Shown piece by piece: positions 6,496-17,612 of a DNA stretch of 64,000 nucleotides. A program made the translations under genes and the position numbers. The notes beneath the pieces are model-generated. The model was not told the origin of the DNA and ran no database searches. It saw only the letters and a list, made by a program, of their open reading frames with translations. The stretch is from Mumia sp. ZJ1417 (GTDB lineage: Bacteria; Actinomycetota; Actinomycetes; Propionibacteriales; Nocardioidaceae). The stretch covers positions 1,178,001 through 1,242,000 of the forward strand of contig NZ_CP059901.1 in NCBI RefSeq assembly GCF_014127285.1. Reading direction: 5' to 3'. Numbering within the stretch: position 1 is the stretch's first letter; every line of letters begins with the position of its first letter.

Positions 6496-7631
6496 GCGGC
6501 TTCCCCGGGCTCGCCAACTGTCACAGCCACGTCTTCCACCGGGCTCTGCGCGGGCGCAGCGTCGGCGGCGACACGTTCTGGGCCTGGCGGGACCAGATGT
6601 ACGCCGTCGCGGGCGTGCTCGACCCGGACCTCCTCCACGACCTTGCCGTGGCGACGTACGCGGAGATGCGGCTCGCGGGCATCGGCGTCGTCGGCGAGTT
6701 CCACTATCTGCACCACGGCCCGGACGGTGTCCCGTACGACGACCCGAACGCCACCGGCGAGGCGCTGATCGCTGCTGCGCGCGAGGTCGGGCTGCGGATC
6801 TGCCTGCTCGACACGTGCTATCTCGCGGCGGGGTTTGGGCGGCCTGTTGAGGGGGTCCAGCGGCGCTTCTCCGACGGTGACGCCGAGGCCTGGGCGCTGC
6901 GCGTGAGCGACCTCGCCGCCCGCCACGCCGGTGCGGACGACGTCGTGGTCGGCGCCGCGATCCACTCCGTACGGGCGGTGCCGCCGGGCCAGCTCGGCAC
7001 GGTCGCCACCGCACTCCCGGAGGCGCCGCTGCACGTCCACGTCTCCGAGCAGCCGCGGGAGAACGAGGACTGCCTCGCCGCCACCGGCCATACCCCGGTC
7101 GCTTTGCTCGCCGACGCCGGCGCCTGGACGCCCCGCACGACGGCGGTTCACGCCACGCATCTCACCGAGGCCGACATCGCGACGCTCGGCGACGCGCGGG
7201 CGTACGTGTGCTTCTGCCCGACCACCGAGGCCGAGCTTGCGGACGGCGTCGGACCGTCGACCCGGTTGCGCGACGCCGGGGCGCGGCTCACGCTCGGGTC
7301 GGACAGCAACACAGTGATCGACCTGTTCGCGGAGGCGAGGGCGGTGGAGATGCACGAACGGCTGGTCAGCGGCACGCGCGGGGCGTGGAGCGCGGCGGAG
7401 CTGACGGAGGCGGCGACGCGGACGGGCTACGCCTCGCTGGGGTTCGCACCGGATCTCGCCGGCGCCGACGCGTCGACGCTGCGCGACTCCGTACGGCTCG
7501 CTGGCGCGGTCGAGCCGCTGTGGGCCGCGACGGCCGCGGACGTGGAGCCGCCCAAGGACCTGCCGTACGAGGCCGACGAGATCGCCGAGCGGATGCGCCG
7601 CGCGGTCGCCGCGATCTGGGGGCGCGTGTGA
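6492..7631 (+). CDS. hutF: Formimidoylglutamate deiminase
   Basis: Converts N-formimino-L-glutamate to N-formyl-L-glutamate and ammonia. It belongs to the amidohydrolase superfamily: [13 protein letters not shown] (residues 9-21) has the metal-binding Hx[12 protein letters not shown] is characteristic of HutF, and later metal and catalytic residues lie in [17 protein letters not shown] and LGSDSN. At 379 residues it is shorter than the usual 450 or so. It begins almost at the first barrel strand and lacks most of the N-terminal beta-sandwich part. The ATG start is well supported because it overlaps the preceding stop (ATGA). Whether the short N-terminus is normal for this lineage should be checked by alignment. 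Confidence 0.92.
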
Positions 7632-8869
7632 GCGGGGTTTCGACAGGCTCAACCGGCGGGGCCGAGGTTTCGACAGGCTCAACCGGCGGTGGCGGGGTTT
7701 CGACAGGCTCAACCAGCGGTGGCGGGGGTGCGCGAGCGCTGCTCCTCACCCACATCGGCGAGCTCGTCACGTGGGAGAACGAGCGCCCGCTCCGCCAGGA
7801 CGCCGCGCTCGTCCTCGCCGACGGCGTCGTCGCGTGGGTCGGGGACGCGGCCGACGCGCCCGCCGCCGACGAGGTGCTGGACGTCGCCGGCGCCGCGGTC
7901 GTCCCGGGCTTCGTCGACTCCCACAGCCACCTCGTCTTCGCCGGGGACCGCGCGGCGGAGTTCGAGGCGCGGATGGCCGGGCGCCCGTACGCCGCCGGCG
8001 GCATCCGCACCACCGTTGCCGCCACCCGCACGGCCACCGACGCCGACCTCGACGCGAACGTCCGCCGACTCGTCGCCGAGATGCAGCGCCAGGGGACCAC
8101 CACGGTCGAGATCAAGAGCGGGTACGGCCTCACCGTCGACGACGAGGCGCGCTCGCTGGCGATCGCCGCGCAGCACACCGACGAGACCACCTACCTCGGC
8201 GCCCACATCGTCCCCGACGGCACCACCCCCGAGGCCTACGTCGACCTCGTCACCGGCCCGATGCTCGACGCCTGCGCCCCGTACGCGCGCTGGGTCGACG
8301 TCTTCTGCGAGGACGGTGCGTTCGGCGCCGACGCCGCCCGCACCGTCCTCACCGCCGGACGCGACGCGGGCCTCGGCATGCGCGTCCACGCCAACCAGCT
8401 GTCGTACGGCCCGGGGGTGCAGCTGGCCTGCGAGCTCGGCGCGGCCGCGGTGGACCACTGCACCTACCTCAGCGACGCCGACATCGAGGCGCTCGCTACC
8501 TCCGACACCGTCGCGGGGCTCCTTCCCGGCGTCGAGTTCTCGACCCGCCATCCGTACCCCGACGCGCGCCGGCTCCTCGACGCCGGCGTCACCGTGTCGC
8601 TCGCGAGCGACTGCAACCCGGGCAGCAGCTACACGTCGTCGATCCCGTTCTGCCTCGCGCTCGCCGTGCGCGAGATGGGCATGACCCCGTACGAGGCCCT
8701 CGGCGCGGCGACGCTCGGCGGGGCCGCGTCCCTGCGTCGCGACGACATCGGCCACCTGCGGGTCGGGGCGCGTGCCGACCTCGCGATCCTCGACGCTCCC
8801 TCGGCGGTGCACCTGGCGTACCGGCCCGGCGTCCCGCTGGTCGCCCGCACGCTCGTCGGCGGCCGCTGA
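7628..8869 (+). CDS. hutI: Imidazolonepropionase with a repeat-derived N-terminal extension
   Basis: Hydrolyses 4-imidazolone-5-propionate to N-formimino-glutamate. The body shows amidohydrolase motifs: [12 protein letters not shown] (metal HxH), [23 protein letters not shown] and [14 protein letters not shown]. The GTG start overlaps the hutF stop (GTGA). The first 34 residues are VSTGSTGG-type repeats encoded by three 30-base units, and normal HutI sequence begins only at [13 protein letters not shown]. No in-frame start follows the repeats before the conserved part, so the repeats are probably translated. Total length 413. It is the last gene of the hut operon. Confidence 0.93.
7636..7719 (+). 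repeat. Three GGTTTCGACAGGCTCAACC repeat units at 30-bp spacing, in frame in hutI
   Basis: Units at 7636-7659, 7666-7689 and 7696-7719 read GGTTTCGACAGGCTCAACCRGCGG with almost no divergence and exact 30-base phasing, so the hutI frame stays open. I recognise this word (reverse complement GGTTGAGCCTGTCGAAACC) as a dispersed repeat of many actinobacterial genomes; that is from memory, not from a search. The unit spacing of exactly 10 codons argues for selection for an open frame. Confidence 0.88.
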
Positions 8870-9171: not shown

Positions 9172-9967
9172 GGCTGATCGGGTCCGCGCGTGGCGACCCG
9201 ACGTGCCGCACCTGCGTGAGGTGCTGCACGCCGAGTTCACCGAGCACGCCTACCCGAGCCACACCCACGGCGACTGGACGCTGCTGCTCATCGACGCCGG
9301 CGCCGTCTCGTACGACCTCGACCGTCATCCCCACACCGCCGAGCCGACGACCCTCACGCTCCTCCCGCCGCACGTGCCGCACGACGGCCGTACGGCGCGC
9401 GAGGGGCGGCCGTTCCGCAAGCGCGTGCGCTATCTCGACGCGACCTGGCTGCCGCTCGGTGCCACCGGCCACAACGTCGACCAGCCGACGGTCGCGCGCC
9501 CCGACGTCACCGGCGGGGTGAGGCGTATCCATGCGGCGCTCGGCGGGGGCGACGCCTTCGAAGCGGAGTCAGAGCTGGTCCGGGTCCACGACCTGCTGCG
9601 GGAGCACCTCCACAGGCTCGCGCCGTCGACAGCCCCCGACGTGCCGCTGGCCCGCCGTCTGCGCGAGCTCCTCGACGAGGCGGTCGTCGCCGGCCTGACG
9701 CTCGATGAGGCCTCGCGGGTGCTCGGCGCACACCCGAGCCACCTCGTACGGTCGTTCTCAGCGGCGTACGGCCTCCCGCCCCACCGCTACCTCACGAGCC
9801 GCCGCGTGGACCTCGTCCGCCGGATGCTGCTGGACGGCCGTCCGGCCGCGGAGGCGGCGGTGGCCGCCGGATTTCACGACCAGGCACACCTCACGCGCCA
9901 CTTCCGGCGGGTCCTCGGGACGACGCCCGGCGCCTTCGTAGGTGCCCGACCCCGTCGTCTGAGGTAG
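9170..9967 (+). CDS. AraC-family transcriptional regulator
   Basis: 265 residues from the ATG at 9170 (a TTG at 9155 is in frame but less likely). The N-terminal part is an AraC-type cupin (HTHGDWTLLLIDAG, LTLLPPHVPHDG). The C-terminal part has two helix-turn-helices: LDEASRVLGAHPSHLVRSF and AAVAAGFHDQAHLTRHFRR with the PGAF ending. It stands back to back with the DUF2000 remnant, a pairing in which the regulator would normally control the neighbour (inference). Its stop codon lies inside the left arm of the dyad that precedes the first mini-protein gene. Confidence 0.88.
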   Translation: MADRVRAWRPDVPHLREVLHAEFTEHAYPSHTHGDWTLLLIDAGAVSYDLDRHPHTAEPTTLTLLPPHVPHDGRTAREGRPFRKRVRYLDATWLPLGATGHNVDQPTVARPDVTGGVRRIHAALGGGDAFEAESELVRVHDLLREHLHRLAPSTAPDVPLARRLRELLDEAVVAGLTLDEASRVLGAHPSHLVRSFSAAYGLPPHRYLTSRRVDLVRRMLLDGRPAAEAAVAAGFHDQAHLTRHFRRVLGTTPGAFVGARPRRLR

Positions 9968-10047
9968 CCCCGCCCACCAATCTGAGGCACCTGGTAAGCC
10001 AAACCTAGGGTGCGCACCCGATGTGAGCGCCTACCTCAGACGACGAG
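9953..10047 (+). promoter_or_regulatory. Upstream region of mini-protein A with 15-bp inverted arms
   Basis: CGTCGTCTGAGGTAG (9953-9967) is exactly reverse-complementary to CTACCTCAGACGACG (10031-10045). A partial third copy, TCTGAGGCAC, lies at 9981-9990. The stretch 9980-10047 aligns base for base at both ends with 14471-14537, upstream of mini-protein B. If TCTGAGG serves as -35, TAGGGT at 10006-10011 is a suitable -10 (17-base spacing). Either a promoter plus operator or a leader element could account for it. Confidence 0.6.
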
Positions 10048-10081
10048 AGTGAGGGCATCAGGACGAGCGAAGGAGACCCTG

Positions 10082-10219
10082 ATGTACATCGATCCCGAGC
10101 AGTCGGTCACGACCGAGATGAAGCACCGCATCGAGCGGCTCCCGATCCCTGGTGACGACCGTCGCGCCGACCTCGTTCGCGGGCCGCGCGCACGTCGTCG
10201 TCGGGGACTGCGACTCTGA
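10082..10219 (+). CDS. Arg-rich mini-protein A (45 residues), paralogue of the one at 14548
   Basis: An ATG with AAGGAG 7 bases upstream opens a 45-codon frame. Residues 1-18 (MYIDPEQSVTTEMKHRIE) align without gaps to mini-protein B, sharing P5, E6, V9, T11, E12, M13, R16, I17 and E18. The rest is basic, with 11 arginines in all and a run of four near the end. I do not recognise a family with a known function. The shared N-terminus plus the shared upstream DNA make it a real gene and not a chance frame. No signal peptide or membrane segment is visible. Confidence 0.65.
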   Translation: MYIDPEQSVTTEMKHRIERLPIPGDDRRADLVRGPRARRRRGLRL

Positions 10220-10270
10220 GCCGTCGTGTTGCGCCTACCCGACCGCGTCGTCCCGTGCGAGTATCCCCGC

Positions 10271-11224
10271 ATGGGCGACGCGGTCGAGATCGAGGTCGGG
10301 AACCGTGACGTCCGCGTGTCCAACCCCGACCGCGTCTACTTCCCCGAGCGGGGCGAGACCAAGCTCGACCTCGTCACCTACTACCTCTCCGTCGGCGACG
10401 GCATCGTCAACGCGCTGCGTGAGCGGCCCTGCATGCTCCACCGCTTCCCCAAGGGTGTCGCCTCGACGAAGGTCCACCAGAAGCGCGTCCCCGCGGGGGC
10501 GCCGCCGTGGCTGGAGACCGTACGCGTGGAGTTCCCGCGGTACGGCCGCCACGCGTACGAGCTGTGCGTCACCGAGCTCGCGAGCGTGATCTGGGCGGTG
10601 CAGATGTCGACCGTCGAGTTCCACCCGTGGAACTCACGCCGCGCCGACACCGAGAAGCCCGACGAGTGGCGCATCGACCTCGACCCGGGCCCGGAGTGCG
10701 ACTTCTCGACCGTACGGAGGGTGGCGCACGTCGCGCACGAGATCCTCGACGAGCTCGGGGCGGTCGGCTGGCCCAAGACCTCGGGTGGTTCCGGGATGCA
10801 CATCTATGTCCGTATCGCGCCCGAGCATGGCTTCCCCGACGTCCGTCGCGCCGCGCTCGCGTTCGCCCGCGAGGTCGAGCGCCGCGTCCCTGACGAGGTG
10901 ACGACGACCTGGTGGCGCAAGGACCGCGACCCGGCCAAGCTCTTCGTCGACTACAACCAGAACACCCGCGACCACACCATTGCCGCCGCCTACTCCGTAC
11001 GAGGCGTCCCTGACGCACGGGTCTCCGCGCCGATCCGGTGGGACGAGGTCGACGACGTCGAGCCCGCCGCACTGACGATCGCCACGATGCCCGCCCGCTA
11101 TGCCGAGCTGGGCGACCTGCACGCGGGCATCGACGAGGCCGTGTTCTCGATCGCGCCCCTGCTGGAGTGGGCGGCGCGCGACGAGGCCGAAGGGGCGCAG
11201 GTGCCGCCCGAAGAGGGTGGCTGA
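10271..11224 (+). CDS. LigD-type DNA polymerase/primase domain protein (stand-alone PolDom)
   Basis: 317 residues of the archaeo-eukaryotic primase family used in bacterial non-homologous end joining. Evidence: VSNPDRVYFPERGETKLDLV at the N-terminus, the metal-binding pair in RIDLDPGPECDF, and SGGSGMHIYVRI. No ligase or nuclease domain is fused, and no ku or ligD ligase gene is in the window. The ATG at 10271 is preferred over a GTG at 10226 because family members start just before the VEIEVG strand. It may fill in or add ribonucleotides at ends during repair, or act as a stationary-phase polymerase; the exact role is inference. Confidence 0.87.
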   Translation: MGDAVEIEVGNRDVRVSNPDRVYFPERGETKLDLVTYYLSVGDGIVNALRERPCMLHRFPKGVASTKVHQKRVPAGAPPWLETVRVEFPRYGRHAYELCVTELASVIWAVQMSTVEFHPWNSRRADTEKPDEWRIDLDPGPECDFSTVRRVAHVAHEILDELGAVGWPKTSGGSGMHIYVRIAPEHGFPDVRRAALAFAREVERRVPDEVTTTWWRKDRDPAKLFVDYNQNTRDHTIAAAYSVRGVPDARVSAPIRWDEVDDVEPAALTIATMPARYAELGDLHAGIDEAVFSIAPLLEWAARDEAEGAQVPPEEGG

Positions 11225-11276
11225 CGGGGCGCGGGCACGCTAGCGTCGAGGGGAACGCTCACCGAGAGGAGTCCTC

Positions 11277-11582
11277 ATGCGCAAGCTCTCCCTTCTCGTC
11301 GCTGCCGGCGTCGGATACGTCCTCGGGGCCAAGGCCGGACACGAGAGGTACGACCAGATCGTCACGCAGACCAAGAAGCTCCTCGGGAGCCAGCCGGTCC
11401 AGGACGGCTTCTCGAAGGCGACCGACACGGTCAAGGACCAGGCGCCCGTGGTCAAGGACAAGGTCACCGATGCTGCTCACAAGGTCGCAGACAAGGTGAC
11501 ACCGGGTTCGTCGAGCGACCATGTCGAGGTCGAGGAAGAGCTGGCCTGGACGACGTCCACCGACGACAAACCGAAGCCCTGA
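11277..11582 (+). CDS. YtxH-like small membrane-anchored protein
   Basis: 101 residues: a short N-terminal hydrophobic segment (LSLLVAAGVGYVLGAKAG) followed by a charged alpha-helical stretch with TDTVKDQAPVVKDKVTDAAHK repeats of the YtxH/late-embryogenesis type, and an acidic tail. GAGAGGAG precedes the ATG. The layout predicts a membrane-anchored cytoplasmic or envelope coiled helix. The function is unknown. It ends one base before the next gene's GTG, so the two probably form an operon. Confidence 0.72.
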   Translation: MRKLSLLVAAGVGYVLGAKAGHERYDQIVTQTKKLLGSQPVQDGFSKATDTVKDQAPVVKDKVTDAAHKVADKVTPGSSSDHVEVEEELAWTTSTDDKPKP

Positions 11583-11583
11583 G

Positions 11584-12297
11584 GTGGCGCCCGTACGCGA
11601 GGACGTTTCCGCGGCACAGTTCGTCGCGGCGCTGCTCCCGATGGCGACGGACGAGCAGCGGGTGAAGTACCAGCGGTTCTTCCCCGGTGACGACACCTTC
11701 GTCGGCGTACGGATGGGCGCGATCTTCGGCCTTGCCAAGGAGTTCCTTGCGATGCCCGTCGACGAGCTCGAGGTGCTCCTCGACCACGACGTGCGCGAGG
11801 TCCGGGTCGGCGCCTGCTCGATCATGGGCAAGGCGGCGGCCCGCAAGCGGGTGACCGAAGAGCGGCACGAGGAGCTGTACGACCTCTACGTGCGCCGCCA
11901 CGACCGGATCGACGGGTGGGACCTCGTCGACCTCGGGGCCTACCAGGTCGTCGGCAGCTGGCTCGTCGAGCGCCCGCGCGACCCGCTGTATGCGCTGGCG
12001 CGCTCGGACTTCTGGCCCGAGCGGCGTACGGCGATCGTGGCGACCGCGGCGTTCATCGGTCGCGAGGACGTGGCCGACACGTTCGCGATCAGCGCGCTGC
12101 TCCTCGACGACCCGGAGCCGCTGGTGCACAAGGGTGCCGGGTGGATGCTGCGCTACGCCGGCGACGTGGACCGGGACGCGTTGCGCGGGTTCCTCGACAC
12201 GCACGCGGTCACGATGCCCCGCGTGATGCTGCGGACCGCCCTCGAGAAGTTCGACAAGCCTGAACGCGCCGCCTACCTCGCCCGCCCCGCGATTTGA
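11584..12297 (+). CDS. DNA alkylation repair (AlkD-like) HEAT-repeat protein
   Basis: 237 residues of alpha-helical repeats. FFPGDDTFVGVRMGAIF, HDVREVRVGACSIMGKAA, DLVDLGAYQVVGSWL and PLVHKGAGWMLRYAGD match the AlkD/AlkC-type HEAT-like glycosylase fold, which wraps DNA and removes cationic N3/N7-alkyl purines. The GTG at 11584, next to the upstream stop, is the chosen start; the longer open frame upstream is the shadow of the previous gene. The fold is clear, while catalysis is inferred from family. The stop codon lies in the left arm of a terminator-like inverted repeat. Confidence 0.82.
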   Translation: MAPVREDVSAAQFVAALLPMATDEQRVKYQRFFPGDDTFVGVRMGAIFGLAKEFLAMPVDELEVLLDHDVREVRVGACSIMGKAAARKRVTEERHEELYDLYVRRHDRIDGWDLVDLGAYQVVGSWLVERPRDPLYALARSDFWPERRTAIVATAAFIGREDVADTFAISALLLDDPEPLVHKGAGWMLRYAGDVDRDALRGFLDTHAVTMPRVMLRTALEKFDKPERAAYLARPAI

Positions 12298-12347
12298 CGC
12301 GTTCCCCACCGAGTTGCGTCCGAGATGGGTGGGAAACGCGTCAAATC
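12291..12347. terminator. Bidirectional terminator-like inverted repeat between convergent genes
   Basis: 20-base arms 12291-12310 and 12328-12347 pair with one mismatch around a 17-base loop, overlapping the AlkD-like gene's stop and lying before the convergent glucosidase stop. There is no U-run, as is common for actinobacterial terminators. The arm shares GTTCCCCACCGA and CGATTTG with the element in hutH. Confidence 0.75.
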
Positions 12348-12366
12348 AGGGGGCGGGCCCTCAGGG

Positions 12367-14370
12367 TCAGCGCGTGCGTAGGCCGAACCCGTATGGGAAC
12401 AGCGGGTCGTAGTCCGCGTCCCCGACGTTGAGCGGCTGCTGCGCGACCGTACGAGGCCACGTCACCGGGAGCTTGCCGGTGAACCGCTTCTTGCCGAACA
12501 GCACGTCCGCCACGCCCGCACCCTCGCTGCCGGGCAGCCAGCCTGCGACGAGCCCGTCGATCTTGCTGAGCAGGTCCGGCGCGATCTCCAGCGGTCGGCC
12601 CGAGACCACGATCACGACGCACTCCGCGGCCTGCGTGCAGACGGTGTCCACGGCCTGCTGGTCGGCCTCGGACAGCTTCATGTCCTTGATCGGCCGCAGC
12701 ACCCCGTTGTCACCGGGGTCGAAGCCCCAGCGCGGGCCACCGACGTCGCCGAAGCCCTCCGCGTACGGCGTCTCGCCGACCACCACGACACCCGTCGCGT
12801 CGCTCGGCACCGGCGTGGACGCGGTCTCGCTCACCGTGACGTCACCGCGCGAGGCGTCCTCGATGCCCTCGAGGATCGTCGTGCCCGGGAACTGGTGGTA
12901 CGAGCCGCCCTGCCAGGTCAGCGTCCAGCCGCCGGCCTGGTTGCCGATGTTGTCGGCGTTGCTGCCCGCGACATAGAGCGACGAGCGCTTCGACAGCGGC
13001 AGGACGTCGCCACGGTTCTTCAGCAGCACCTGCGACTTCGCCACGGCCTCGCGCGCCACCTTGCGGTGCTGCGCGCTGCCGACCTCGTCGATGTTTCGAC
13101 GGTCGGTATACGGCTTCTCGAACAGGCCGAGCTCGAACTTCTGGGCCAGGATCCGGCTCACCGCGTCGTCGATCCGCGACATCGGGACGCGTCCCGCCTC
13201 GACCTCCTGGGTGAGTGCGGTGATGAACTGCCGGAACTGCGCCGGCTCCATCGCCATGTCGATGCCGGCGTTGATCGCCGTACGGACCTGCGTGTTCCAG
13301 TCGCCCGGGATCTGGTGGATCGCCTCCCAGTCGCTGATGACCAGGCCGTCGAAGCCCATCCGGCCCTTGAGGACGCCGGTGAGCAGCTCGGTGTGCGCGG
13401 TCATCTTGAGCGGGTTGCCGACCCCGTCCTCGGTCCAGTCGACCGACGAGAACGACGGCATGACCGACCCGGCGCCGTACTTCTTGATCGCGGGCCAGTA
13501 CGGGGCGAGGGCGAGGCGCGTGAACTCCTCACGGCTCACGATCGCGATGCCCTGGTCGATCGTGTAGTCGCCAGCGGACGTCCCGAAGGTCGTGAGGCCG
13601 TCTCCGGCGTAGTGCTTCGGCGTTGCGAGGACGCGGTCGGCGTTGTCGAGCTGGCCGGGTCGTCCCTGGAAGCCGCGGACGGCGACGGCCATCTCCGAGA
13701 CCAGCCGCGGTGACTCGCCGAAGCTCTCGTACGTACGGCCCCACCGGTCGTCCCGTGCGACGCACAGGCACGGCGCGAAGCTCCACTGCGGACCCGTCGC
13801 GCGGGTCTCCTCGGCGGTGACGTGGGAGATCTTCTCGACCAGCTTCGGGTCGCGGGTGGCACCGAGGCCGATGTTGTGCGGGAACACGGTCGCGCCGTAG
13901 AGGTTCCCGTGTCCGTGCACGGAGTCGACCCCGTACAGGACGGGGATCTTCAGGCGCGTCGCGAGCGCGCCGTCCTGGAAGCCGTCGACCATGTCGGCCC
14001 AACCCTCGGGGGAGTTGTCGGCCGGTACGGAGCCGCCGCCGGACAGGATGCTGCCGAGACCGAGGGCGGTCACGTCGGCGGGCGTCGCGTTGCCCCGCTC
14101 GGCCTGAGTCATCTGGCCGATCTTCTCGGCCAGGGTCATGCGTGAGAGCAGGTCCTTCACCCGCTTCTCGGTAGGCAGCCGCGGGTTGAGGTAGGGCAGG
14201 GTGCCCCGGTCCTTGCCCGTGCTCGCCCCGCTCGGGGTCGTGGCCGGCGCCGAGGCCGCGCCGACGCCGACGGTGCCGGCGACCAGTGCCGTTACGGCAC
14301 CGAGCACCAGCGTGGTGCGTCGGAATCGGGAACGAGGTGCTGCGTCGGTGCTTCGAGGTCTGGCATCCAT
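12367..14370 (-). CDS. Secreted glycoside hydrolase family 3 beta-glucosidase
   Basis: Cleaves terminal beta-linked glucose from oligosaccharides. The 667-residue protein has an Arg-rich N-region and hydrophobic core (TTLVLGAVTALVAGTVGVGAASA), so export is expected. The GH3 N-domain has VLYGVDSVHGHGN, TPKHYAGDG and the nucleophile Asp in GLVISDWEAI. The GH3 C-domain follows with SQVLLKNRGDVLPL, GWLPGSEGAGVADVLFG and KLPVTWPR. Start: the ATG at 14370 has GGAGGA upstream and begins the signal peptide; the longer frame to 14457 lacks these. Probably used for cellodextrin or glucoside use. A perfect 12-base palindrome lies 20 bases upstream. Confidence 0.93.
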   Translation of the reverse strand: MDARPRSTDAAPRSRFRRTTLVLGAVTALVAGTVGVGAASAPATTPSGASTGKDRGTLPYLNPRLPTEKRVKDLLSRMTLAEKIGQMTQAERGNATPADVTALGLGSILSGGGSVPADNSPEGWADMVDGFQDGALATRLKIPVLYGVDSVHGHGNLYGATVFPHNIGLGATRDPKLVEKISHVTAEETRATGPQWSFAPCLCVARDDRWGRTYESFGESPRLVSEMAVAVRGFQGRPGQLDNADRVLATPKHYAGDGLTTFGTSAGDYTIDQGIAIVSREEFTRLALAPYWPAIKKYGAGSVMPSFSSVDWTEDGVGNPLKMTAHTELLTGVLKGRMGFDGLVISDWEAIHQIPGDWNTQVRTAINAGIDMAMEPAQFRQFITALTQEVEAGRVPMSRIDDAVSRILAQKFELGLFEKPYTDRRNIDEVGSAQHRKVAREAVAKSQVLLKNRGDVLPLSKRSSLYVAGSNADNIGNQAGGWTLTWQGGSYHQFPGTTILEGIEDASRGDVTVSETASTPVPSDATGVVVVGETPYAEGFGDVGGPRWGFDPGDNGVLRPIKDMKLSEADQQAVDTVCTQAAECVVIVVSGRPLEIAPDLLSKIDGLVAGWLPGSEGAGVADVLFGKKRFTGKLPVTWPRTVAQQPLNVGDADYDPLFPYGFGLRTR

Positions 14371-14389
14371 GAGGTCCTCCACTCGAATG

Positions 14390-14401
14390 TGACGTACGTC
14401 A
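14390..14401. promoter_or_regulatory. Palindrome TGACGTACGTCA upstream of the GH3 gene
   Basis: A perfect 12-base palindrome 20 bases upstream of the glucosidase start. It is a candidate operator for a sugar-responsive (LacI- or GntR-type) repressor. The CGTACG core is very common in this window, which lowers the weight of this call. Confidence 0.4.
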
Positions 14402-14471
14402 TACTCAGGCCTCCGAATATTGCGTAACCAACAACAAATGGCAAGACCTGGGTTCACGGATACGTCCCGGA

Positions 14472-14537
14472 TCTGAGGTAGTCGTGGACCCTTACTAAGG
14501 AACTCGTCCGATGCCTGCGGCTACCTCAGACGACGAG
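14472..14537 (+). promoter_or_regulatory. Upstream region of mini-protein B, matching that of mini-protein A
   Basis: TCTGAGGTAG (14472-14481) and CTACCTCAGA (14521-14530) form a 10-base inverted repeat 39 bases apart. The 17-base word CTACCTCAGACGACGAG (14521-14537) is identical to 10031-10047, and the spacing from TCTGAGG to this word differs by one base between the two loci. A -35 TGAGGT and -10 TAAGGA at 14496-14501 can be drawn in the same place as at locus A. Confidence 0.6.
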
Positions 14538-14547
14538 CATTGACGTC

Positions 14548-14664
14548 ATGATCCTGAATCCGGAGTACTACGTGGAGACCGAGATGCAGCGCCGTATCGA
14601 GGACGCCCACCCGCGCCCTCGTCGCCGTACCGTCCGGCGTCGCACGCGCCGGGCTCGGCGGTGA
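14548..14664 (+). CDS. Arg-rich mini-protein B (38 residues), paralogue of the one at 10082
   Basis: The frame starts MILNPEYYVETEMQRRIE and ends in an Arg-rich tail; 13 of 38 residues are arginine. It aligns without gaps to mini-protein A over the first 18 residues (PE..V.TEM..RIE). No strong Shine-Dalgarno is seen. The TGA overlaps a GTG (14661) that is in frame with the large LuxR-type regulator, so it could be translationally coupled to it. The function is unknown. A short amphipathic helix followed by polycationic residues would suit nucleic-acid or membrane-surface binding (speculative). Confidence 0.62.
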   Translation: MILNPEYYVETEMQRRIEDAHPRPRRRTVRRRTRRARR

Positions 14665-14732
14665 CCCAGGGCGCGGTGTCGGCCCACGAATCTGAGTCGA
14701 ATCCTGTCGGTGTCTTGGGCGATCATGGGTTC

Positions 14733-17612
14733 ATGTCCGCCGAGTGGAGACCGACCGAGCCCCTGGTCGGGCGTGAGACCGAGCTCTCGCGCCTGCTCGC
14801 CGCAACCGGCGTCGCTGACCCGGAGGCCCGCGGGGGTGTCCTCCTCAGCGGCGACGCCGGCATCGGCAAGACTCGCCTGCTTCGCGAGCTCGCGGTCCTT
14901 GCCGCCGACGGAGGCCACCGCGTCATGGTGGGCCACTGCGTCGATCTCGGCGACAGCGCGATCCCCTTCCAGCCCTTCGCCGAGATGCTGGCGGGGTTGG
15001 ACGACGCCACCCGCACGTCCATGTCCGACGCGATGCCCCCGCTCGGTCCGCTCATGTGGGGTGCCGCGGACGGCGCGGGCGTGGACCGCGGCGAGCTCTT
15101 CTCGTCGGTCGTGACCGCGCTCGAGCTGCTCGGCGCGAGCCGTCCCGTCCTTCTCATCGTCGAGGACGCCCACTGGGCAGACGCCTCCACACGGCACCTG
15201 ATCCGCTACGTGCTCTCCCAGCGGTACGAGGGCGACGTCCGGGTGGTCGTCTCCTACCGTAGCGACGACCTGCACCGCCGCCACCCGTTGCGCGCCGACG
15301 TCGCGGAGTGGAGCCGGTTGCCCGGTGTCCAGCGTCTCGACCTCGGCCCGCTCGCCGACGACGAGGTTCGGGCGCTCGTGCGTTCGCGCGACGCCGGCGC
15401 GATCGGTGCGAGCGGGCTGGCCGCGATCCTCCGCCGCGCGGAGGGCAACGCGTTCATCGTCGAGGAGCTGCTCGACGTCGACGACAAGAACGGCCCGCTG
15501 CCTCCGACCTTGGCCGATCTGCTCCTCGTGCGGCTTGACCGCCTTGACGACGCTGGGCGACACGTCGTGCGTGCGCTCGCCTGTGCAGTCGGTGAGGTGA
15601 GCGACGAGCTGTTGTCCGCCGTCGTGGACCTGCCACCGAGCACGATCGAGGACGGTGTCCGCGCCGCACTCGACCACCGCATCCTCTCCCGGACCCGCAG
15701 CGACGGCTACGTCTTCCGACATGCCTTGCTCGCCGAGGTCGTACGAGACGACCTGCTGCCGGCCGAGCGACGTCGGATCCACGCGGCATACGTCAAGGTG
15801 CTGAGCGGCCGTGGCGACTCGGCCGACGTCGCGCGGCACGCGTTCGAGGCAGGTCTCGACGAGGTCGCGTTCACGGCCAGTGTCCGCGCTGCCGAGCGGG
15901 CGACCCGCGTCGCGGGCCACGACGAGGCCGCGGACCACTACGAGCGGGCGTTCTCGGTGGTGTCCGCTGCCCCTGAGGGCACCGACGTCGTCGGTCTGGT
16001 GATCGCCGCGAGCGAGGCCAAGACAGCAGCCGGATACGTACGCCGAGCCTGGGTGCTCGTCGGCGACTTCCTCGAGCAGGCCGACGACCTGCCTGTGGAG
16101 GACCGGGCGCGGCTCCTCGTCGCGTACGGCACGGCGGCGCTGATGGCCGATCGGATCGTCGAGCCGCGCCAGGCGCTCGAGGAGCTCTTCGTGCTCGTTC
16201 CCGAGCAGCCGACTGCGCTGCGGGCCTCCGTCGAGGAGCTCGCTGCCCGTGCCGCGTCCAACGAGAGGCACTTCGACGAGGCGATCCGCTGGGCGACCCA
16301 GGCGATGACACTAGGGCAGCGGCTGGGTCTCAACCGGCTCGTGGCCGACGCTGCCGCAACCAAGGCTAGGGCGCGTGCTCGGATCGGTGACGACCCCGAG
16401 GGCGACGAGCGCCGCTTCCTCGAGGTCGCAAAGATTGCGGCGACCGAGGGCGACGTCGTGGCAGAGCTGAGGGCTCGCCACCACCTCGCCTTCTACTACC
16501 ACGAACGCGGCATGCTCGACCGCGCTGAGGCCGAGTTCCTCCGGACGATGAAGACGGCCGTGCAGGCCGGTCGCCAATGGGCTCCGTACGGTTTCGACGG
16601 CCGCTTCTTCGCGTCGGTCACGGCCTATCTCCTCGGTCATTGGGACCTTGTCCTCGAGCTCTGCGACGTCGGCATGCTGCAGCCGCCCAAGGTCCCCGCA
16701 GCTGATCTCGAGGCCGTCGGTCTGCTCGTCTCGGCAGGCCGGGGCGACGGCGCGGCGCTGCGCACGGCCGAGCGACTGCGCGCCCTCTGGCACAAGGACA
16801 TTGTCCTCGCCATCCACTGTGCGACGGCCGCCATCGACCTGGCCCGCGATGCGGGTGAGGCGACACGCTGGCACGACGACCTGGTCATGACACTGACCCA
16901 GGACTGGGACGGTGAGTTCGTCCCGGCTCGCCTGCGGATGGGGGGCCTGCTCGTGGGACGCCTCGCCGACGAGGCGGGCCACGCGTCGACCGCCGAGCGC
17001 AGCGAGTGGCTCACGCGCGCAGAGCAGCTGCGGGCCGTCGCCGACCACGTCATCGAGCAGCGCGGCCCGTTCGGTCCCGAGGGAGCCGCGTGGTCATTGC
17101 GCCTGGACGCCGAGATCCTGCGTCTGCGCTGGATCGTCGGGGGTGAGGTTGCGCTCCCCGCGCTGCTCACCGCATGGCGCGAGACCACGCAGGCGTTCGC
17201 CGAGCTCGGACAGGTCTACGAGGAGGCCCGCTCCGCGTCCCGGCTCGCGGCAGTCCTGCAGGCCAGCGGCGACGTGGCAGGCGCCAAGGAGGTCGCGAGC
17301 AGCGCGCACGAGCAGGCCGTCGCGTTGGGCGCAGCACCGCTCACCCGCGTGCTCGAGCAGCTCGCGGGCTCGACCACGGCAGCGGCCACCTCGGCCGCTT
17401 CGAAGCCCCACGTCGCCGGCGAGAAGCCGCTGACTGCTCGTGAACGTGAGGTCCTCGAGCACCTCGTCGAGGGCCGTACCAACGGCGAGATCGCGACGCT
17501 GCTGTTCATCAGCACCAAGACGGTCTCGGTCCACGTCTCCAACATCCTCGCCAAGCTCGGGGCGTCGACCCGCACGGAGGCGGCAGCGATCGCGCGACGC
17601 CAGCGCGCCTGA
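14733..17612 (+). CDS. Large ATP-binding LuxR-family regulator (LAL/MalT-like)
   Basis: A 959-residue STAND-type regulator. An AAA domain at the N-terminus has Walker A GDAGIGKT (about residues 41-48) and Walker B VLLIVEDAHWAD (about 138-149). A long TPR-like helical middle follows, and a GerE-type HTH at the end: LTAREREVLEHLVEGRTNGEIA, then ISTKTVSVHVSNILAKLG. Such proteins switch on genes when ATP and an inducer bind. Start: the ATG at 14733 is taken, just before the conserved LVGRETELSRL; a GTG at 14661 in frame overlaps the mini-protein B stop and would add 24 residues. Neither has a clear ribosome site. Its targets are unknown; the mini-protein promoters are nearby candidates. Confidence 0.88.
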   Translation: MSAEWRPTEPLVGRETELSRLLAATGVADPEARGGVLLSGDAGIGKTRLLRELAVLAADGGHRVMVGHCVDLGDSAIPFQPFAEMLAGLDDATRTSMSDAMPPLGPLMWGAADGAGVDRGELFSSVVTALELLGASRPVLLIVEDAHWADASTRHLIRYVLSQRYEGDVRVVVSYRSDDLHRRHPLRADVAEWSRLPGVQRLDLGPLADDEVRALVRSRDAGAIGASGLAAILRRAEGNAFIVEELLDVDDKNGPLPPTLADLLLVRLDRLDDAGRHVVRALACAVGEVSDELLSAVVDLPPSTIEDGVRAALDHRILSRTRSDGYVFRHALLAEVVRDDLLPAERRRIHAAYVKVLSGRGDSADVARHAFEAGLDEVAFTASVRAAERATRVAGHDEAADHYERAFSVVSAAPEGTDVVGLVIAASEAKTAAGYVRRAWVLVGDFLEQADDLPVEDRARLLVAYGTAALMADRIVEPRQALEELFVLVPEQPTALRASVEELAARAASNERHFDEAIRWATQAMTLGQRLGLNRLVADAAATKARARARIGDDPEGDERRFLEVAKIAATEGDVVAELRARHHLAFYYHERGMLDRAEAEFLRTMKTAVQAGRQWAPYGFDGRFFASVTAYLLGHWDLVLELCDVGMLQPPKVPAADLEAVGLLVSAGRGDGAALRTAERLRALWHKDIVLAIHCATAAIDLARDAGEATRWHDDLVMTLTQDWDGEFVPARLRMGGLLVGRLADEAGHASTAERSEWLTRAEQLRAVADHVIEQRGPFGPEGAAWSLRLDAEILRLRWIVGGEVALPALLTAWRETTQAFAELGQVYEEARSASRLAAVLQASGDVAGAKEVASSAHEQAVALGAAPLTRVLEQLAGSTTAAATSAASKPHVAGEKPLTAREREVLEHLVEGRTNGEIATLLFISTKTVSVHVSNILAKLGASTRTEAAAIARRQRA

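Follow-up and report, generated by a model that had tools for sequence, protein, structure and literature searches.

A composite DNA element that is nearly base-exact across several actinobacterial families, and that usually stands with a tiny basic ORF before a large ATPase regulator, occurs twice in the 64,000-nucleotide stretch of the Mumia sp. ZJ1417 genome analysed here (the window). The element is rigid and reads TARGG-N7-CCGATGT-N6-CTACCTCAG-AnGACGAG, with CTGAGGTA boxes upstream. The explanation that we favor, with modest confidence and from sequence comparison, is that it is a control element from which a small arginine-rich protein and an AAA/LuxR regulator are expressed as an operon, under the control of that same regulator. 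With a candidate promoter, a regulator, and a candidate partner named, it becomes possible to test what regulators of this kind sense and what helps them.

The first-pass annotation of the window had described two arginine-rich mini-genes at separate loci, here sites A and B (Table 1), which share a 17-base leader word and an upstream dyad. Both mini-protein ORFs exist as it described them, and the word is identical at the two sites. Beyond what was then noted, TARGG-N7-CCGATGT-N6 lies directly before the 17-mer, with rigid spacing at both loci. The TCTGAGG sequence is found at positions 9958, 9981, and 14472 of the window, and the equal spacing to the word that had been claimed holds for the inner half-copy at A (50 bases from 9981 to 10031, and 49 from 14472 to 14521 at B) but not for the outer copy at A, which is 73 bases away. 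The 15-base dyad arms at A are likewise real; the long dyad is nevertheless incidental and not the conserved part, because its outer arm runs into the stop codon of the AraC-type ORF that ends at 9967 and a box near that place is found in just two of the five Mumia A loci (at -59 in L001 and at -56 in L032).

Table 1. Positions in the window of sites A and B and of the genes that follow them
Feature	Positions	Strand	Remarks
Outer TCTGAGGTAG box at A	9958..9967	.	box start -59; overlaps stop of AraC-type ORF
Inner TCTGAGGCA box at A	9981..9989	+	box start -36
Core element A	10005..10052	+	53.5 bits
Part of core A, TAGGG	10006..10010		
Part of core A, CCGATGT	10018..10024		
Part of core A, CTACCTCAGACGACGAG	10031..10047		exact 17-mer
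Mini-protein A	10082..10219	+	45 aa, 11 Arg, pI 11.4
LigD-type primase-polymerase domain protein	10226..11224	+	GTG start, ATG at 10271; next gene after A
TCTGAGGTAG box at B	14472..14481	+	box start -35
Core element B	14495..14542	+	56.6 bits
Part of core B, TAAGG	14496..14500		
Part of core B, CCGATGC	14508..14514		
Part of core B, CTACCTCAGACGACGAG	14521..14537		exact 17-mer
Mini-protein B	14548..14664	+	38 aa, 13 Arg, pI 11.8
AAA/LuxR regulator	14661..17612	+	N-terminal AAA_16, C-terminal GerE HTH

With up to three mismatches the 17-mer has three matches in the window versus 0.37 expected, a number reached by 0 of 100 shuffles, and its reverse complement is present with one mismatch at 9951-9967. 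Searched for alone in the whole genome at three mismatches, it gives 9+9 matches and its reversed control 9+3; what stands out is just the pair of exact copies and the inverted copy with one mismatch. For the full element, the next-best plus-strand place in the window scores -17.2 bits, while the best minus-strand place scores -1.1 bits, at 9980, and the next -16.8 bits. The partial minus-strand element near 9951-9967 is perhaps the remnant of a divergent copy. Throughout the 4.19-Mb genome, a 34-base core pattern with up to three mismatches matches just sites A and B, and a third place found with a 30-base pattern at three mismatches (genome position 1593816) is without TARGG and was taken as a chance match. 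A long, terminator-like inverted repeat (12285-12352 of the window) lies where two genes converge (11521-12297 and 12367-14457) and gives a weak match to a microRNA model on both strands. An imidazolonepropionase-like gene lies upstream of site A (7208-8869), and such a gene is often upstream of the element in other genera (L027, L036, and L039).

Conservation is visible in columns that lay outside the search patterns. Columns 0 to 6 and most of 13 to 29 are biased because they were searched for; columns -12 to -8, 7 to 12, 23, and 30 onward were unsearched, and among 82 non-redundant sites they include T-12 (95%), A-11 (85%), G-9 (98%), and T+32 (99%). The score matrix was made from 82 sites, with L084, L122, and L130 dropped and one spurious site (L036 at 930) kept in. 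The sigma-A -10 consensus is TANNNT, of which T-12 and A-11 are present at the frequencies just given and T-7 in 5% of the 82 sites, a poor -10 match. We rejected a coding explanation of the conserved stretch, in which the ATG of CCG-ATG opens a frame that in some loci reads MWGPTS.., since the third codon positions +14, +17, +20, and +32 are fixed at 90-100% whereas codon positions 1 and 2 at +22, +25, +30, and +31 are variable, and the spacing to the small ORF is not constant among loci.

Both the common control region and the mini-protein family are real, and their conservation extends well past the genome in which they were noticed. When relatives were searched for further copies, as the first-pass annotation had proposed, the element proved widespread: with up to two mismatches it is present in 58 of 120 genomes of the same family, in 72 copies, a count that leaves out matches with exactly three mismatches, many of which are one coding sequence. 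The 17-mer with up to one mismatch occurs in 42 of 294 own-family genomes, and 26 of 29 further 17-mer loci have the full element at 20 bits or more, the exceptions being L020, L022, and L028. At order level, a 30-base pattern with up to three mismatches matched 88 of 391 genomes and its reversed control matched once; a search of the phylum with up to two mismatches found the element in 3 of 396 genomes, our own among them. Scanned for exact matches, the collection of named genomes gave at least 117 stretches. The genera among the matches listed are Nocardioides, Kribbella, Aeromicrobium, Mumia, Pimelobacter, Terrabacter, Terracoccus, Intrasporangium, Janibacter, Ornithinimicrobium, Arsenicicoccus, and Austwickia, together with MAGs named Micropruina, Nostocoides, Marmoricola, and Frankiales. 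Outside the class, genome G630 has a 49.7-bit site followed by a small ORF without the signature described below and then by a LuxR-like gene.

The link to a LuxR/MalT-type regulator is stronger than had been claimed. Of the 72 family copies, 59 are upstream of a regulator match on the same strand, at 116-858 bases (median 287), and the other 13 comprise eight before WhiB7-like paralogues (in G060, G070, G103, G080, G109, G053, G077, and G088) and the five Mumia mini-A loci (in G000, G021, G038, G057, and G064). A regulator match (E 1e-60) is found in 83 of the 120 genomes, 58 of which hold an element copy, and no copy was found in the 37 family genomes without a regulator match. The proposal of a regulon of mini-proteins was too narrow: the commonest layout is a small ORF plus the regulator, and there are copies that stand before a WhiB7-like paralogue and have no small ORF. 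Among all loci gathered, 210 sites score at least 20 bits, with 185 before an AAA/LuxR gene, 10 before a WhiB gene, 12 before others, and three near a contig end; this set is biased by the manner in which loci were fetched, and the count in 120 family genomes is the fairer one. The 12 others include the five Mumia A loci, one Kribbella fusion, one degenerate remnant, and a few single cases. In L056, after position 1500, a frame starts like a Kribbella small ORF (MFTTDSVKAEV) and continues into a long unrelated protein. Kribbella-type loci L051, L061, L063, and L064 have two elements in tandem ahead of a single regulator, each followed by a small ORF, the two ORFs differing in type, and a Nocardioides MAG has two elements as well. 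Single elements in L123, L207, and L169 stand before other small ORFs (one hydrophobic, one poly-arginine, and one longer).

Regulators are also found without the element. There are 25 regulator-positive family genomes with no copy at up to two mismatches, and of the 20 examined, a site scoring more than 10 bits is present in 10 and one of 4.5 bits in another, with the small-ORF signature in nine of these 11. The remaining nine have no site; eight are without the signature, and the signature match in G004 looks unrelated. Among the best 30 regulator relatives of a longer list from the class search, 23 have a site of at least 20 bits, one has a degenerate site with a small ORF, and six (families f102 and f6) have neither a site nor the strict small-ORF signature upstream. 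The element and the small ORF thus tend to be lost together with the regulator retained, which favors the element being the promoter of the small ORF and argues against it being indispensable to the regulator.

The ORF that follows the element has an arginine-rich tail and, close to its start, [AST]E..[YF]R. This strict signature is present at 126 of 185 regulator loci, and reading those stretches on the reverse strand gives none; a looser form, [ASTV]E(2-3)[RH], is present at 162 of 185, versus six on the reverse strand, and is matched by both mini-proteins A and B. As called, the 126 strict-signature ORFs encode 29-81 aa (median 49), and the shortest may be mis-started. Mini-protein A is kept in five Mumia genomes, with 45 aa in each. 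Pfam has no family for mini-proteins A or B, and NCBIfam none for seven small proteins. Median Ka/Ks is 0.43 for Mumia A (five sequences), 0.36 for a 50-aa Nocardioides type (16), 0.61 for the Terrabacter type (seven), and 0.89 for Kribbella (12), and in four of five groups substitutions fall most often at codon position 3, with no such excess in Kribbella. Together these patterns support protein constraint in most groups tested, though not in Kribbella; the check on codon substitution that had been set for the small ORFs came out accordingly. The element brings with it a small-protein family missed by the Pfam and NCBIfam models tested, as well as a possible new link to WhiB7-like factors.

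In the regulator, which we class with the MalT-like, STAND-type LuxR proteins, the domain search found an N-terminal P-loop ATPase (AAA_16, E 6.1e-23), a C-terminal HTH (GerE, E 2.5e-19), TPR_12 as the sole, weak TPR match in the middle (E 0.33), and no receiver domain. The HTH matches the structures of DevR, VraR, GerE, and NarL; an HTH pattern search found none in nine of 28 loci. The protein is not MalT itself, scoring 27.1 bits with the MalT model versus a cut-off of 537.

Upstream of the core there are 160 CTRAGG boxes in 168 non-redundant sites, whereas Markov shuffles give 8.1 (maximum 13). Most numerous at -34 to -36, the boxes also cluster at about -25, -45, and -57, and for the 72 that fall outside the main peak the best period is 10.7 bp, in phase with that peak; CTGAGGTA boxes at one mismatch behave similarly (52 boxes, period 10.9). 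Oppositely oriented boxes exceed the shuffles too (35 versus 3.6), with unclear phasing, and downstream, at a fixed place (+13 to +21), lies a box that is the upstream ones in reverse complement. Of 84 sites, 26 have no CTGAGGTA/TACCTCAG box at one mismatch within -75 to -19. TARGG itself may be an additional box, roughly a turn closer in. A comparison of 114 leaders found no shared RNA fold, with 50 of 50 column shuffles scoring as low or lower, and Rfam gave no match at gathering score and six weak matches with E up to 10; a viral snoRNA model match overlapping site B (14493-14557, minus strand, E 2.2) was below gathering and was dismissed. As the boxes are helically phased and a common RNA fold was not found, we read the element as double-stranded DNA.

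In the favored explanation, the regulator would bind CTGAGGTA/TACCTCAG through its GerE domain, and its oligomers, arrayed along one face of the DNA, would control its own operon. TARGG would be the -10 region or overlap it, with transcription starting near CCGATGT, and the small protein would be produced and would tune the regulator. A duplication in Mumia would have put a second element and small ORF ahead of the primase-polymerase gene, and some Nocardioides-type genomes would have gained the element before a second WhiB7-like gene, which would thereby join the regulon. That the regulator is the binder is suggested mainly by adjacency, and the 13 distant copies, few as they are, support it.

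A different regulator, or a dedicated sigma factor for which CTGAGG is the -35, could instead read the element and have the LuxR operon as its main target; we regard this as unlikely, if the most credible of the alternatives. At the main position CTGAGG is 17 bp from TARGG, as suits the sigma factor proposed in the first-pass annotation, there is strong conservation of CCGATGT and TARGG outside the boxes, and nine of the 20 examined genomes hold the regulator without the element. However, CTGAGG is also present roughly a helical turn closer in and, on the far side, at distances of one and two turns, positions that suit a regulator box better than a -35, and the absence of copies from all 37 regulator-negative genomes also speaks against another reader. 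It is less plausible still that the stretch after CCGATGT is an RNA leader in which the small ORF senses translation and controls the regulator, after the manner of known WhiB7 leaders. Given a start near CCGATGT, the conserved stretch would be part of the transcript, and the small ORF precedes the regulator, its stop having a 4-base overlap with the nearest regulator-frame start at 32 of 184 loci, as at B (GTG at 14661; an alternative ATG is at 14733). Against an RNA leader stand the lack of a common fold, the recurrence of the box further upstream in reverse complement and with helical phasing, the WhiB7-like copies, mostly without a small ORF (signature at one of 10), and the pairing to a downstream CTGAGG/TGAGGTA, possible at just 39 of 210 sites. 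Recently duplicated DNA or a mobile repeat without control function might account for the tandem Kribbella elements with two small ORFs, the two in the Nocardioides MAG, and the second Mumia copy, but it is highly improbable given the few copies per genome, their fixed place and orientation before start codons, and the column conservation outside the searched letters.

A bolder proposal, which we advance tentatively and on balance doubt, is that these loci form a new actinobacterial switch in which arginine-rich proteins are anti- or co-activators of STAND/LuxR regulators, with one strictly conserved autoregulated promoter, and that the switch has captured a second WhiB7-like factor in some Nocardioides-type genomes and a repair primase-polymerase in Mumia. 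If so, a stress signal would be tied to both outputs. A literature search, which covered few subscription papers, found no paper on the element or the small proteins.

Known systems offer partial parallels. WhiB7 has a known uORF-containing leader, and the gene behind eight of the 72 copies is WhiB7-like, with an AT-hook-like tail (RGRGRPRK). Unlike WhiB7, the element-bearing gene (L292-L298 and L305) is a second paralogue, mostly in genomes that have the usual WhiB7-type gene too, and mostly lacks the signature ORF. Among the best 30 WhiB7-type loci of a longer list, of which G112 was unscored, eight score at least 39 bits and G100 19.8, whereas 20 are without the element, their best upstream score being -18.3. 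NarL/DevR-type response regulators have the same HTH class, and TACCTC agrees with the NarL heptamer consensus, TACYYMT, over its first six letters; unlike them, the regulator here is without a receiver domain, as far as the domain search found, and its boxes sit in a longer rigid context. MalT is similarly a large ATPase with a C-terminal GerE HTH, and its multimers bind cooperatively to MalT boxes (PMC4381067). According to PMC7567727, the E. coli MalT box is GGGGA(T/G)GAGG, MalT boxes overlap the -35 region, and the Actinoplanes MalT motif is TCATCC-5nt-GGATGA. TGAGG is common to the E. coli box and CTGAGGTA, but the arrangement here, CTGAGGTA boxes with a fixed inverted box downstream, is neither of the MalT box forms given there. 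What further sets the present loci apart from MalT is the TARGG..CCGATGT core and the small basic ORF before the regulator.
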